Shown here: positions 1,532-6,145 of the stretch, one piece after another
Position numbering within the stretch: the stretch's first letter is position 1
Layout of the letters: each line of letters begins with the position of its first letter
Source of the DNA: a bacterium
GTDB lineage: Bacteria > UBP15 > UBA6099 > DSWB01
Direction: 5' to 3'
Length of the DNA stretch: 8,451 bases
Assembly (NCBI GenBank): GCA_020061125.1
Contig: JAGUYV010000315.1
Coordinates: 1-8,451 of the forward strand
The notes under the pieces: model-generated
Seen by the model: only the letters and a program-made list of their open reading frames with translations
What the model was told of the DNA's origin: nothing
Database searches by the model: none
Translations under genes and position numbers: made by a program

Positions 1532-1576
1532 ATCTCTATCCCATTGCGCCCCTCATTGGGCTTTGGGTCTCGAACC

Positions 1577-1725
1577 TTTTCACCGCGGAGACACGGAGTC
1601 GCGGAGTGGTTCTTTCCGCGCGGCCCCTGGCCGCGCCCCCTGTGTTCTCTGTGCGCTCTGTGGTGATCATTGCCTTCGCCTTGCCTTTGCTTTTCCCTAC
1701 GCGCTACTCGCTACACGCTACACGC
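1577..1725. repeat. Intergenic palindromic repeat element, copy 1
   Basis: Contains a left arm of CGGAG-type units (1581-1606), a central perfect inverted repeat GCGCGGCC-CCT-GGCCGCGC (1618-1636), a right arm of CTCTGTG-type units (1639-1663), a pyrimidine tract of CTTTGCC/CTTTTCCC units, and an end made of CGCTAC(A/T)CG repeats (about 1699-1725). The tail tube gene stops six bases beyond the end. Compared with copies 2 and 3 it lacks the left GGCAAAG tract. Confidence 0.85.
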
Positions 1726-1730
1726 TCACC

Positions 1731-2978
1731 TCACGCCGCATACGACGCCTGCATGTTCTCCACGATGCAGATCACGCTGCCGTAGGTGGCGTCCTGCAAA
1801 ACGTCCAGGGTCAGCGTCTCGCCCAGCAGGCGGTTGTCGTCGGCCACGGGGCCGGTTTTGATTCCCACCTTGGGGAACACAAGCTCCACGGTGTAGTAGC
1901 GGCCGGTCTCGTAGGCGCTCTTGCCCACGAATTTCACATAGATGCTTGTGGTCCCGTTTTCCTCAAGGAGCTGCTGCCACACATAGCTGCGCATCTGCCT
2001 GCGCAGGGTGATGGTCTGCGCCCGCTGCCCGCGGATCACGCCGCCCGCGAACGAGCCGCCCGCCTCGGGGCACTCGTACACCTCGATGTTGTTGTTGAAC
2101 GCCCACTCCAGCCCCTTGCTCTCGGCCTTCACATGCACGCCCCCGGCCAGGGCGCTGCCGTCCCAGGCGCCGCCCACGATGACCGTGGCGTTGCCAAGAA
2201 GCATGATGTCTTCGTCCACGCGGTTGGGCGCCGTGCCCCACGCCGCGGCCGTGCGGTACACCACCTTGTAGTCAATGGTGCCGGCCACGGCCAGGCTCGT
2301 GATGTTGATGGTGGTCGTGCTCACGGATGTCACGGTGACCGGCTCCCACACGCCCGCGCTGGTCTCGGCCAGGATCTGATGCACGTTCTCGGCCAGGTCA
2401 TCGAGCACTGCCGAAGCCACCGTGAGGCTGGTGGCGCTGCCCGCCGCGCTCACCGTCTCGGTGGCGGGCAGGTCCTTGTCGTACTTGCCCGTGCCCTTGA
2501 TCTGCGCGGACAGCTTGATGAACGCGTTGTTGTCGAACGACAGCGACAGGCTGTCCACGCAGCAGCTCACCAGGCGGCGCTTGGCGATGTTGCCGCCGTA
2601 CCGCGCGGCCAGGGTGAAGGTCGGCGGAAACTGATCGTCCGTGGGCGTGATCGTGTGCTTCTTGCCCGCCACGCCCACATTGGCCGTGCTCACCGATCCG
2701 AGCGCGTAAGCCGCCAGAAACGCCAGGTGCTGCGCCTGCATCTTGCTCGTTTCGAGAGTGAACCCGGCGCGCATGCCCAGGTCGTACATCACATCGGCCT
2801 CTTCTTTGCCGGTCATTTCATCCGCGTTGCTCTCGCGCAGCGGCTCCAGGTTGGGCACCGACGAGATGTCGAACAGAAACGAAGTGTCCAGGGTCTGCGC
2901 CGTGTTCAGCCCGGACTCCTTGCTGTTGGCGCTGGCCGCCACCCACGAGTTTTTGGTTACGAAATTCGGAACGCTCAT
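1731..2978 (-). CDS. Major tail tube protein (non-contractile tail type)
   Basis: A 415-residue protein starting MSVPNFVTKNSWVAASANSK. It is beta-rich, and residues about 53-128 (ADEMTGKEEADVM, then AALGSVST-like YALGSVST and a PPTFTLAARYGG strand) resemble the tail tube proteins of siphophages that stack as hexamers around the DNA channel. Residues about 172-245 are threonine/valine-rich (AAGSATSLTVASAVLDDLAE, then TVTSVSTTTINITSL) and look like an inserted domain. This may explain a length above the roughly 300 residues common for the family. Its start overlaps the preceding gene's stop as ATGA, so the two are probably translationally coupled. The chaperone genes follow, as expected for a tube gene. 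A sheath protein is less likely, since no sheath-tube pair is present. Confidence 0.75.
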   Translation of the reverse strand: MSVPNFVTKNSWVAASANSKESGLNTAQTLDTSFLFDISSVPNLEPLRESNADEMTGKEEADVMYDLGMRAGFTLETSKMQAQHLAFLAAYALGSVSTANVGVAGKKHTITPTDDQFPPTFTLAARYGGNIAKRRLVSCCVDSLSLSFDNNAFIKLSAQIKGTGKYDKDLPATETVSAAGSATSLTVASAVLDDLAENVHQILAETSAGVWEPVTVTSVSTTTINITSLAVAGTIDYKVVYRTAAAWGTAPNRVDEDIMLLGNATVIVGGAWDGSALAGGVHVKAESKGLEWAFNNNIEVYECPEAGGSFAGGVIRGQRAQTITLRRQMRSYVWQQLLEENGTTSIYVKFVGKSAYETGRYYTVELVFPKVGIKTGPVADDNRLLGETLTLDVLQDATYGSVICIVENMQASYAA

Positions 2979-3190
2979 TTCTTGTCACCTGCTTTCTGCT
3001 CGGCCGCGGGTTTCGCGGGCGCGCTCTTCTTGTCCGCCTCGGGCGGCGGCGGGTCCGGGATGGCGTCAAAGTCCTTTTTGTTCCGAAGCGGCACGGCGTC
3101 GTACACAGGACCGTGCTTGAAGCTCACCCCCGCGCACTCGCCCTCGATCACCGTGAACGGCTGCGCGCCTTTCTTGAGCCGGTATTTCAT
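2975..3190 (-). CDS. Small phage protein upstream of tail tube (71 aa)
   Basis: A short protein with a folded-looking N-terminal half (MKYRLKKGAQPFTVIEGECA, then VSFKHGPVYDAVP) and a disordered C-terminal third rich in P, A and K. AAGGAG lies about 10 nt before the ATG, and the stop overlaps the tail tube start by 4 nt (ATGA). It occupies the slot of the small gp38/DUF2635-type proteins in Mu-like phages, but the sequence does not clearly show that family. Its function is unknown; a tail-related role is inferred only from the coupling. Confidence 0.75.
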   Translation of the reverse strand: MKYRLKKGAQPFTVIEGECAGVSFKHGPVYDAVPLRNKKDFDAIPDPPPPEADKKSAPAKPAAEQKAGDKK

Positions 3191-3217
3191 AACGATGCAA
3201 CTCCTTTCCTTGTGTGC

Positions 3218-3670
3218 TTAAAGAACCACGGCCGCGGCGAACGCCGTGCCGTAAATAATCGCCGTATCGTCCGCTTCAAGCCGCTCGTCCCGCACATGCT
3301 CGAACGGGCTTAACCCGGCAAGACCCAGGTCGTTGTCCTGGAGGGTGTCGAATATCCCGTCCAGCATGGCATAGGCCCCTTTCTCCGCGGTGCGCGCATC
3401 AGACTCTCCGGCCAGGCTTTCGGCGCACACATAGATCGCCCACTGCTTGATGTTCGCGGCGCTGCGCAGCGCTTCCTCGGAATCGCTCGAGCTGCCCGAG
3501 TACACCACCAGGATGGCCGGCAGCCCCAGGACCGCGCGCTCGAAGTCCACGATGTCCGGCCTGTCCCCGAACGATACGATCTGGTCGTCGGGCACGAAGT
3601 CCAGCGCCGTGCTGTCCTGCAAGGCCTCGATGATCGCGGCCTCGATGCTTGCGATGGCGGGGCGGCTCAT
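3218..3670 (-). CDS. Mu gp37-like protein (DUF1834), tail/neck assembly
   Basis: A 150-residue protein with the DUF1834 pattern: an N-terminal helix (MSRPAIASIEAAIIEALQ), a central strand block LGLPAILVVYSG (about 48-59), then IKQWAIYVCAESLAGESDAR (about 74-93), and the helix YAMLDGIFDTL. The family is found in Mu-like phages between gp36 and the tail genes and probably acts at the head-tail or tail-terminator stage. The ATG at 3670 has GGAGG only 4 nt away, and that site lies at the edge of the tandem CCGGAAG units of repeat copy 2. Confidence 0.83.
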   Translation of the reverse strand: MSRPAIASIEAAIIEALQDSTALDFVPDDQIVSFGDRPDIVDFERAVLGLPAILVVYSGSSSDSEEALRSAANIKQWAIYVCAESLAGESDARTAEKGAYAMLDGIFDTLQDNDLGLAGLSPFEHVRDERLEADDTAIIYGTAFAAAVVL

Positions 3671-3677
3671 CCGTCCT

Positions 3678-3839
3678 CCGGCTTCCGGCTTCCGGCTTCC
3701 GGAAAGTCAAGGGCAAAGATTACCACGGAGATCACGGAGGCGCGGAGGTCACGGAGAACCCGTGGTTTTGCGCGGCCGCAGGCCGCGTCCCTGTGTTTCC
3801 CTGTGGCCTCTGTGGTTGTCATTGCCTTTCGCCTTTGCC
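3678..3839. repeat. Intergenic palindromic repeat element, copy 2
   Basis: Starts with tandem GCTTCCG units (about 3680-3702) next to the gp37-like gene's ribosome-binding site. A GGCAAAGATTACCACGGAGA arm follows (3712-3731), then further CACGGAG units, the centre GCGCGGCC-GCA-GGCCGCGT (3770-3788), CTGTG/CTCTGTGGT units (to about 3817) and a short ATTGCCTTTCGCCTTTGCC tract. It lacks the CGCTACACGC end seen in the other copies. It fills nearly all of the 185 bp between the two flanking genes. Confidence 0.87.
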
Positions 3840-3855
3840 GGATCCCCGGCCGTTC

Positions 3856-4455
3856 TCATTTTTCCCCGGTGTAGAATTCGCCGAGTTTCTTTTTGTGATG
3901 CTCGCGGTCCGCGGCCGTGACCTCGATGTATTTCCATCCAGGAATCGTGACCTGTTTGCGCAGCACGAACAGGGGCTTGAGTTTGCGCTTTCCGATTTTC
4001 TGCATGATGATGCCCACGGATTTTCCGGCCGGAGTCTTGAGCAAGAAAGTGTTTTCATATTCCCTGGGCGCGCGGTTGATTCTTTCATCCACGGGAATGG
4101 CCAGCGCCTTGGCGCGTTTTGGCCGCACCGTGCCGCCGTGCCACAGCAGGCGCGCGCGCTTGTCCGATGTGCCGATCTCCAGCCTGTCGCCAGTCACGCG
4201 GAACTGGATGCTGCGATAGAGCCGCCTGGTGAGCGTGAGGGTTTTGCCGCCTTTCATGGCCGCGCGCCCGCTCTTTTCCCAGTCGGTTTCCTGGCCCTCT
4301 TCGCGGAAGGTTTTCGCCAGGCTGCGCATCTGCTGCGCGGCAACCAGTTTCATGGGCGCGCGTTTGTCCGCACCGGCGCGCGCGGCCATCTCGTTCAGCC
4401 GCTTCACCGCGCCGCCAGGCGGGTCCATCGTCACCGTGAATTTGAATCCGCTCAT
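3856..4455 (-). CDS. Phage virion morphogenesis / tail completion protein
   Basis: A 199-residue basic protein. The central region has the family's typical order: a tryptophan-containing turn (ETDWEKSGRAAMKGGKTL, about 56-73), the helix LTLTRRLYRSIQF (73-85), then a strand and histidine-containing loop IGTSDKRARLLWHGGTV (94-110). The last ~20 residues are lysine-rich. Members of the virion morphogenesis (Mu gpG-like, tail completion) family act at the head-tail joint. Placement between gp36-like and gp37-like genes is common in Mu-like siphophages. The ATG at 4455 is preceded by GGGAG, which lies at the outer end of repeat copy 3. Confidence 0.78.
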   Translation of the reverse strand: MSGFKFTVTMDPPGGAVKRLNEMAARAGADKRAPMKLVAAQQMRSLAKTFREEGQETDWEKSGRAAMKGGKTLTLTRRLYRSIQFRVTGDRLEIGTSDKRARLLWHGGTVRPKRAKALAIPVDERINRAPREYENTFLLKTPAGKSVGIIMQKIGKRKLKPLFVLRKQVTIPGWKYIEVTAADREHHKKKLGEFYTGEK

Positions 4456-4458
4456 TGT

Positions 4459-4695
4459 CCGGCTCCCGCCTCCCGGCTTCCGTCTTCCGGCAAGGCAAAG
4501 GCAAAGGCAAAGATTACCACGGAGAACACGGAGGCTCGGAGTCCACGGAGACCCCCCGTTTTTGCGCGGCCCAAGGCCGCGTCCCTGTGCTTCCCTGTGC
4601 GCTCTGTGGTTATCACTGTCTTTGCTTTTCCCTTGTCTTTGCCTTTGCCTTTGCCCTTGCTTTTCCCTGCGCGCTACTAGCTGCGCGCTGCACGC
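4459..4695. repeat. Intergenic palindromic repeat element, copy 3 (longest)
   Basis: The most complete copy. In order: CCGGCTTCCG-type units (4459-4490), GGCAAAGGCAAAGGCAAAG (4494-4512), TTACCACGGAGAACACGGAG (4515-4534), more CGGAG units, the centre GCGCGGCC-CAA-GGCCGCGT (4564-4582), CTGTG units and CTCTGTGGTTATCA (4602-4615), CTTTGCC repeats (about 4620-4660), and a CGCGCTAC/CTGCGCGCTGCACGCT end. The GGCAAAG and CTTTGCC tracts are reverse complements, as are the CACGGAG and CTCTGTG tracts allowing one mismatch, so the whole unit folds back on itself. The gp36-like gene stops 3 bases beyond. Confidence 0.9.
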
Positions 4696-4697
4696 TG

Positions 4698-5132
4698 TCA
4701 GAACCCGTCCAGGCTGTCCCTGAAATCGCTTGCCGCCGAGTGCGTGCTCTCCACTCCGTTGTCCGCGGCCTGGGCCGCGGGCGCCGAGGTGTTGCCGAGC
4801 GTGCCCAGGCCCGACGCCAGGTCGCGCAGAAATCTGATGCTCGCGTCGTGATCCGCCTTTTCCTCTTCGGCCTTGAATCCCCTGTTGCGGTTCAGCTTGT
4901 ACACGGCCAGGTTCGCGGCGTGCGGCGCCAGCGCGGCCAGGGCCGCGGCGTCGGTCACGGGCACCGTGTATTTTGGCGCCAGGTATGTGTTGATGATTCC
5001 GTCCGCATAGGCGATGGCCGCGGCCACCACCGCGGCGTCCGCCTCGCCGTCCCCGTCGAAATCCGCCAGCTTCACCAGCCTGGCCGAGCCGCCCAGCGCG
5101 GCCTCGATGTCCGCTTGCGTGCAGTAAGGCAT
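4698..5132 (-). CDS. Mu gp36-like protein (DUF1320), head-tail connector
   Basis: A 144-residue protein with the clear DUF1320 signature: start MPYCTQADIEAALGG, then LADFDGDGEADAAVVAAAIA (about 22-41) and YADGIINTYLAPKYTVPV (42-59), a helix with LAVYKLNR, and RFLRDLASGLGTLG. The last 30 residues are low-complexity and may be disordered. The family is the Mu gp36 equivalent, an adaptor at the portal or head completion stage. ATG at 5132 with GGAGG about 6 nt upstream. It is separated from the DUF115 gene by the half-length repeat copy 4. Confidence 0.9.
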   Translation of the reverse strand: MPYCTQADIEAALGGSARLVKLADFDGDGEADAAVVAAAIAYADGIINTYLAPKYTVPVTDAAALAALAPHAANLAVYKLNRNRGFKAEEEKADHDASIRFLRDLASGLGTLGNTSAPAAQAADNGVESTHSAASDFRDSLDGF

Positions 5133-5140
5133 GTCAGTCC

Positions 5141-5252
5141 TCCGTCTTCCGCCGTTTGACTTTGATTTTGCTTTTCCCTGCGCCCTCTGTGGCCTCTGTG
5201 GTTATCCTTGCTTTTGCTTTTCCCTACACGCTACTCGCTACGCGCTACACGC
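5141..5252. repeat. Truncated intergenic repeat element, copy 4
   Basis: Has a short GTCTTCCG remnant (5143-5150), then only the right half of the element: TTTTGCTTTTCCCTGCGCCC, CTCTGTGGCCTCTGTGGTTA (5185-5204), CTTGCTTTTGCTTTTCCCTA, and the CGCTAC end (about 5229-5252). The left CACGGAG arm and GCGCGGCC centre are missing. The right end matches copy 1 with very few differences. It overlaps the last codons of the DUF115 gene (stop 5231-5233). Confidence 0.85.
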
Positions 5253-6145
5253 TTCAGCCTTTTCCGCAACTGGAACGCGTAATCCACGCACGGGCCGGCA
5301 TGATACTCGCAGACCCGCGCGAAGTCCATGATCCGCAAACCCTTCTGTTCGCCAAGCAGGCCCGCGCCCGTGGCGTTGATGTACCGGGTTTCGCTCCAGC
5401 GCTCGAACCACATGCGGTAAGCCGCCAGGCTCTGCATGTACGCGCCGCAGGTGGCCACGGCCCGGCCGTGCATGTCGCGCGTCTCCGTCACCGTCTCGTG
5501 CTCCGGACGCTTCTCATCCAGCGGGAAACTCAAGTCCAGGCCCGCGAAGATTACAGGGTCCGCGCCCATGACCGTGGCCAGCATCATCGCCGCCCAGCCC
5601 ACGGTGCCGCCGGGCGCAAGCGCGCCAAAGTAATGGCGCGCTCTGTGAAAATAGCGCGCTTCGACCTCGCGCCAGAACCCGGTCCACGCCGGGTTGTCCG
5701 GGTCCGCGCTCACATCCTCGGTGTACAGCGCCATGTCGTCAGGCTCGAACAGGCTCACCAGGTCGGGGTCCTGGTACGGGCACAGCGCCACCAGGTCCTT
5801 GTGCGGCCGGTAGTTCTCGAAGAACCAGGCCGTGTGCGCCTGCGGGTCGCAGGTCACCGTAAGGTCCGGAACCACGCCGAAGTTCAGGCACCGGTCGAGC
5901 GCCGCGTCCACGGCAATCACCAGGAACTCGCCCTGGCGCTCGTTCAGCTCCGGCAGAATGCTCTCGAGGCTCGGCCCCGCGTTGGCCACAACCGCCGGCA
6001 CAGCGCGTCCCTTAAACATGCCGAACCAGCGGCGAACCCCGTTCATCCGCGCCACGCGCGGCCAGTTCGCGCGCCAGTTGCTCCACCACATGGGCAGCAG
6101 CGCTTCGGATATCCTGTAGTGTTCCGGCCTGGCCGCGGCGTTCAT
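5231..6145 (-). CDS. DUF115 (Maf/MptE-like) family protein, putative glycosyltransferase
   Basis: A 304-residue protein with the hallmarks of the DUF115 family: PAVVANAGPSL (50-60), VIAVDAALDRCLNFGVVPDL (76-95) followed by TVTCDPQ, PGGTVGWAAMMLA (178-190), GADPVIFAGLDLSF (194-207), and RYINATGAG (254-262). Known members include Maf proteins, which attach nonulosonic acids to flagellin, and the archaeal pterin pyrophosphokinase MptE. The fold binds a nucleotide-type donor. The ATG at 6145 was chosen because GGGGAG lies 8 nt before it and it starts 5 nt after the previous stop; the frame is open further upstream but without conserved sequence. The C-terminal VARSE and stop come from repeat copy 4. 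Such a gene is not part of the canonical Mu head module; virion or host-surface glycosylation is an inference. Confidence 0.85.
   Translation of the reverse strand: MNAAARPEHYRISEALLPMWWSNWRANWPRVARMNGVRRWFGMFKGRAVPAVVANAGPSLESILPELNERQGEFLVIAVDAALDRCLNFGVVPDLTVTCDPQAHTAWFFENYRPHKDLVALCPYQDPDLVSLFEPDDMALYTEDVSADPDNPAWTGFWREVEARYFHRARHYFGALAPGGTVGWAAMMLATVMGADPVIFAGLDLSFPLDEKRPEHETVTETRDMHGRAVATCGAYMQSLAAYRMWFERWSETRYINATGAGLLGEQKGLRIMDFARVCEYHAGPCVDYAFQLRKRLKRVARSE

Follow-up and report, generated by a model that had tools for sequence, protein, structure and literature searches.

The window analyzed here, the entire 8,451-bp contig JAGUYV010000315.1, is part of a 4.12-Mb metagenome-assembled genome (MAG; assembly GCA_020061125.1) that is fragmented and 79% complete. 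It carries a Mu-like head and tail operon with four related repeat elements, E1 to E4, at its gene junctions. With moderate confidence, we interpret these elements as non-autonomous mosaic intergenic repeats that spread by copying within a genome, probably driven by homology, and that were retained where they furnish usable gene boundaries. The evidence includes a related phage, in which near-identical copies occupy non-homologous junctions, and further copies across the host genome.

Anatomy of the elements

A preliminary description of this DNA had listed four fold-back elements, all between genes. Alignment of the copies bore out four related elements, at approximately 1560-1735, 3671-3855, 4456-4697, and 5133-5253, with 86% identity between E2 and E3 over 127 nt (E = 7e-37 in a search of the MAG). 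The GCGCGGCCNNNGGCCGCG center was found in three copies as described, and the CACGGAG and CTCTGTG arms and the CTTTGCC tracts are present. E1, E2, and E3 are complete fold-backs, but E4 is partial, lacking the left arm and the hairpin; likewise, the CGCTAC ends ascribed to the family occur in E1, E3, and E4 but not in E2. The elements and their parts are as follows.

1560..1735, minus strand: E1, complete mosaic element at the junction of the tail tube gene (stop 1731) with a 152-aa gene (start 1447)
1697..1726, minus strand: C words of E1, tandem CTACACG/CGCTACT of period 7 (coding strand GCGTGTA), by Tandem Repeats Finder (TRF)
3671..3855, minus strand: E2, complete element that fills the gap from the tail_S gene (stop 3856) to the gp37-like gene (start 3670)
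3677..3702, minus strand: D words of E2, tandem GGAAGCC of period 7 with 100% matches (TRF), adjoining the ATG at 3670
3770..3787, no strand assigned: central GC hairpin of E2, GCGCGGCC-GCA-GGCCGCG; the same hairpin lies at about 1618-1636 (E1) and 4564-4581 (E3)
4456..4697, minus strand: E3, complete element that fills the entire gap from gp36 (stop 4698) to tail_S (start 4455)
5133..5253, minus strand: E4, partial element between the MptE-like gene (stop 5231) and gp36 (start 5132)
5224..5253, minus strand: C words of E4 (TRF), which share sequence with the 3′ end of the MptE-like gene, stop codon included

The elements are mosaics in which tandem words of 6-9 nt follow one another in a fixed order. 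On the coding strand, the first half runs from a stop codon through C words, (GCGTGTA)n or (GGGTGCA)n, and an AAGC/AAAGGC tract to the arm TGATAACCACAGAGGCCACAGAGG and the hairpin, and the second half runs from the GC hairpin CGCGGCCTGCGGCCGCG through (CTCCGTGNN)n, ending in CTCCGTGGTAATC, and (CTTTGCC)n to the D words and an ATG. The arm word preceding the hairpin on this strand is (CACAGAGGN)n, and the D words are (GGAAGCC, GGAAGAC, GGGAGAC)n, with the general form GGAAGNC. By TRF, the C and D words repeat with a period of 7, the arms with one of 8-9, and the AAAGGC tract with one of 6. The inner G-C pairs of the GCGGCC hairpin are invariant or almost so across 12 aligned copies.

E3 contains all parts, in the order C, B, A, hairpin, A, B, D. 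E2 is without C words, and its Shine-Dalgarno sequence comes from the D words (three GGAAGCC and a GGAGGAC). In E1, the C words start directly after the stop codon and carry a TAG every 7 nt, which places stops in all three frames; D words are lacking, and the element is followed by some 110 nt of ordinary spacer. E4 is composed of C, B, a single A arm (the right one, CCACAGAGGCCACAGAGG), B, and D.

Copies in the host genome

The family is not confined to one phage operon, as had been supposed from the window. E2 used as a query against the host MAG gave 40 matches, and element sites were found at 54 places across 40 contigs, many of them adjoining housekeeping genes. Full elements flank host genes for ArgRS, MurB, a SIS-domain protein, NicO, and a TetR-family protein. 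This census is based on ∼790 kb of contigs and on whole-genome pattern searches. Arm words are nevertheless ∼20-fold enriched in the prophage, with 46 sites per 100 kb versus 2.2 in other contigs taken more or less at random. The closest relatives of E1 are chromosomal copies of the host (L009, 82%), and E1 is less like the element at the orthologous junction of the related phage.

Turnover against a related phage

The relative is represented by two abutting IMG/VR contigs of one metagenome, L125 and L149, with the same gene order as the window phage. By the order in L149, the window contig (C8), C78 (tape measure and tail assembly), and C169 (tail fiber J) are neighbors in one Mu-like prophage; C78 is also present in IMG/VR as a viral contig (L141). 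The genes of the two phages are 88-91% identical. Over the whole alignment, orthologous spacers free of element modules are 73-81% identical, and module-bearing spacers 10-67%.

Individual junctions show what this turnover consists of. The gp36-tail_S junction is occupied by E3 (242 nt) in the window phage and by 42 nt with three CGCGGAG words in the relative. At the MptE-gp36 junction, both phages have the outer words in common, and these enclose an inner CACAGAG arm in the window phage and a CACGAAT fold-back in the relative. Word arrays at one junction differ in copy number and in kind between the phages. In the relative, two non-homologous sites, the tail_S-gp37 junction and the counterpart of the junction at C78 3597-3348, carry elements with 97.5% identity over 161 nt, whereas the tail_S-gp37 elements that are orthologous between the phages are only 77.7% identical. 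Taken together with the junction differences and the closeness of E1 to host copies, this requires copying between sites within a genome.

The ends of copied blocks fall within word tracts, half elements occur often, and words are exchanged independently of one another, which favors homology-driven copying over precise transposition. Spacers were replaced whole, exactly from stop to start codon, so that no clean empty site is available in which to look for a target duplication. The condition named beforehand as speaking against the family, namely relatives that carry the same elements at all junctions with normal divergence, did not arise. Of the three roles considered in the preliminary description (RNA stabilization, attenuation, and a mobile non-coding element), the last is the best supported, given the near-identical copies at non-homologous sites, the host-like E1, and the fast turnover of spacers.

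Two further features of these spacers were observed. A DNA methyltransferase gene and two small open reading frames lie between module spacers in the prophage studied here (L007:1257-2825); they are missing in the relative, which has only a 158 nt module spacer at this place (L149:6173-6331). Minimal spacers that consist mainly of CGCGGAG-type words occur at L007:1221-1246, L007:1484-1522, and L125:8345-8367, and in L125 they stand directly before the start codon and themselves supply the GGAG.

Gene-junction placement and boundary signals

With genes called by a simple hexamer model, all 37 of 37 strict-form tandem left-arm words were intergenic in a genome that is ∼85% coding; the reversed-sequence control gave none. 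The earlier view that the elements lie strictly between genes holds for the arm arrays, but not for the CGCTAC tract of E4, which overlaps the last codons and the stop (5231) of the upstream gene. The shared orientation relative to the operon was confirmed; every called gene is on the minus strand, and orientation is one and the same at all phage junctions. Of five intergenic C arrays, four have a stop codon 6-16 nt from their end, and of seven D arrays, five have a start codon at a distance of 11-36 nt (one of the other two is at a contig edge). GGAG was present 5-9 nt upstream of the start codon at all module-bearing junctions tested.

A cassette with GGAG in its D words and TAG every seven bases in its C words, placed between a stop and a start codon, keeps both genes usable. 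We propose that copies survive at gene junctions because these end words provide what a junction needs: the C words would contribute stop codons in all frames, and the D words, (GGAAGNC/GGGAGAC)n, the Shine-Dalgarno GGAG.

Proposed origin and spread

The elements draw on a small set of tandem words of 6-9 nt, arranged about a fold-back core of arm, GC hairpin, and arm. We propose that they multiply by copying among the intergenic sites of one cell's DNA, prophage and host chromosome alike. This copying is most likely homology driven, through gene conversion or template switching that would start and end in word tracts.

Several points weigh against this interpretation. No transfer was observed directly, and the fold-back core is so well conserved that it could itself be a unit of transposition. 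The sample of chromosomal orientations is small. The two contigs of the relative are metagenomic and are taken as one phage by assumption, with ∼60 nt between them missing. Finally, GGAG stands at normal spacing before module-free genes as well, and the D words may therefore be no more than tolerated; the placement may reflect a selected function or only the filtering of harmful insertions.

Alternative explanations

The conserved core raises the question of whether the elements are REPIN-like or resemble miniature inverted-repeat transposable elements (MITEs), mobilized in trans by a REP-associated tyrosine transposase (RAYT) or by some other transposase of the HUH or DDE type. In that case, the recognized substrate would be the hairpin core, with the words as its ragged flanks. 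Like such elements, the copies are inverted, hairpin forming, intergenic, and numerous, near-identical ones sit at different sites, and the host genome encodes four Y1_Tnp proteins. However, near these four loci no arm, B, D, CACGAAT, or hairpin words were found in this 79% complete MAG, and the only match was one isolated two-unit C-like sequence. The fold-back foot, which reads GGCAATGATAACC..GGTAATCTTTGCC in the alignment, bears no GTAG or CGTC tag, and no target duplications were seen by eye. Together with the frequent half elements and the independent exchange of words, this makes mobilization in trans unlikely in our estimate.

A second possibility is that the elements act as RNA, the spacer mRNA forming a long hairpin that stabilizes, processes, or attenuates the polycistronic mRNA or gates translation. 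Predicted folds are strong, with negative z-scores in most copies, the uniform orientation in the phage would suit such a role, and pairing of the CTCC-rich right arm with GGAG is conceivable. Yet the antisense of the phage-type reading folds better than the mRNA in 16 of 18 copies (for E2, −67.9 versus −49.5 kcal/mol), because its G.U pairs become A.C mismatches on the mRNA strand. Compensatory change on both sides was seen in just 1 of 22 consensus pairs. Terminator-like sites numbered 7 against 5.6 expected by shuffling, i.e., chance level, and the coding-strand hairpin is followed by A rather than by the T run of an intrinsic terminator. Sequestration of the Shine-Dalgarno sequence by the arms had no consistent effect, and the relative manages without E3. 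An Rfam scan yielded no match above the gathering score, and a promoter scan no promoter-like site above chance. The stabilization and attenuation roles suggested earlier are thus weakly supported at best, and we regard an RNA role in general as possible but not favored, and on balance improbable.

Alternatively, the spacers might be neutral debris grown independently by polymerase slippage on heptamer-like words, their likeness reflecting a mutational word preference. Heptamer tandem repeats are indeed over-represented in many bacteria (PMC4692102), and tandem arrays here differ in copy number between relatives. Slippage therefore probably contributes to array length, but as the sole cause it is contradicted by the 161-nt block shared between non-homologous junctions and by the conserved hairpin core, which makes this explanation very improbable.

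Lambdoid phages have short, similar boundary or linker sequences at gene boundaries that could guide recombination. To our knowledge, no such sequences recur within one genome or in the host chromosome in the way seen here. That the present elements are cassettes kept for promoting phage gene exchange or acquisition, as their single orientation at many junctions and the methyltransferase-containing cargo between module spacers might suggest, is barely plausible, since there is one cargo case only, similarly built elements also occur in the host chromosome, and selection for future exchange is hard to demonstrate.

Relation to known repeats

We found no paper in the open-licence literature on these words, their peptides, or elements so described. 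A close comparison is with intergenic heptamer direct repeats, namely the TAACTGA repeats of Beggiatoaceae, Cyanobacteria, and Bacteroidetes (PMC4679880) and the GGGAATC repeats of Xanthomonas and Nostoc (PMC4692102), which resemble the C and D words in being tandem, of period 7, and intergenic. TAACTGA repeats often lie a few nucleotides upstream of a start codon and give stops in all three frames; they are patchy across phyla, their mechanism is not known, and Shine-Dalgarno sequences are rare in them (PMC4679880). In contrast to these single-heptamer arrays, the elements described here combine several words in fixed order with a fold-back core that has a GC hairpin and arms of period 8-9, their D words contain a Shine-Dalgarno sequence, and entire blocks are copied from junction to junction.

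Repetitive extragenic palindromic (REP) sequences, bacterial interspersed mosaic elements (BIMEs), and REPINs (PMC3116915, PMC3733652) are similarly intergenic, palindromic, mosaic, multi-copy, and non-autonomous. Tagged REP superfamilies carry GTAG or CGTC at the stem foot (PMC3733652); the present elements lack such a tag, are much longer (100-240 nt), have tandem-word arms, and showed no RAYT association. The halovirus HF2 also has repeat families at its gene junctions; these are reported to have AT-rich motifs and to have been tested as promoters (PMC8707807), a role for which the present elements offer no promoter-like site.

That single-heptamer intergenic repeats are shared by distant bacteria through no evident mechanism was already known (PMC4679880). 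The phage pair adds a direct view of turnover, with spacers replaced from stop to start codon, copies moving between non-homologous junctions, and words doubling as Shine-Dalgarno sequences and stops; repeat spread and boundary placement thereby become directly testable.

Spread of the words in other bacteria and viruses

The whole composite was found only in the host MAG and the related phage. A blastn search with E2 of 60 genomes, drawn from the host's order and from outside it, recovered its own genome only, and the same DNA query had no match among INPHARED phages or PLSDB plasmids. Individual words reach much further. The exact 21-mer CTCTGTGGCCTCTGTGGTTAT occurs in 15 stretches of 13 genomes, where by a rough estimate <1 is expected by chance, and these genomes are labeled Terriglobia/Acidobacteriaceae, planctomycete, Deltaproteobacteria, Bacteroidales, Verrucomicrobia, Gemmatimonadetes, WOR-3, and others. 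Several of the matches are fold-backs of the same kind (L050, L052, L057, L060, and L063), and a few are clearly in other contexts. The pattern ACCACRGAGRNCACRGAG was present in 39 of 386 genomes, often many times, compared to two single matches for the reversed control, yet neither it nor the D word occurs in any of the six other genomes from the host's order. The arm word is thus widespread and patchy. Outside lineage G250, most sampled copies are inverted pairs, e.g., TTCACCACAGAG..CTCTGTGGTGAA.

This distribution might reflect a new superfamily of mosaic fold-backs with a shared arm lexicon (CACRGAG), mobile across hosts and phages of many phyla by way of some mobilizer, which some viruses would have absorbed into protein N-termini (LTTEDTE...). 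We offer this idea tentatively and consider it rather doubtful.

Among the IMG/VR loci L126-L205 (e.g., L129, L161, and L175), 33 of 78 viral copies of the arm word follow closely on a start codon, in a single frame, and encode N-termini such as MKITTEDTEDTE; the number of GACACAGAG (DTE) units varies between relatives. For gene finding, the words call for caution: their translation yields long spurious reading frames, and some viruses seem to have turned them into genuine N-termini. A separate subfamily, CTTTACCACAGAGGACACAGAGGCGTCCCTTGAGACGCCGCCACAGAGGGCCACAGAG, has partly conserved flanks (L291-L300) in one 2.78-Mb genome (G250), which has 21 word matches. Heptamers of the D and C types (GGAAGNC and GTAGCGN) also form tandem arrays in unrelated viral contigs, both coding and intergenic (L253-L290).

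Genes of the operon

The operon is of the Mu-like head and tail type, with genes for capsid gpT, gp36, tail_S, gp37, and the tail tube. The genes that flank the elements are listed below.

1731..2978, minus strand: tail tube protein (Phage_tube_2)
3218..3670, minus strand: Mu gp37-like/tail terminator
3856..4455, minus strand: Phage_tail_S (virion morphogenesis)
4698..5132, minus strand: Mu gp36-like head-tail adaptor

The operon also contains, at window positions 5231-6145, a gene for a protein with an MptE-like (6-hydroxymethylpterin diphosphokinase-like) domain.

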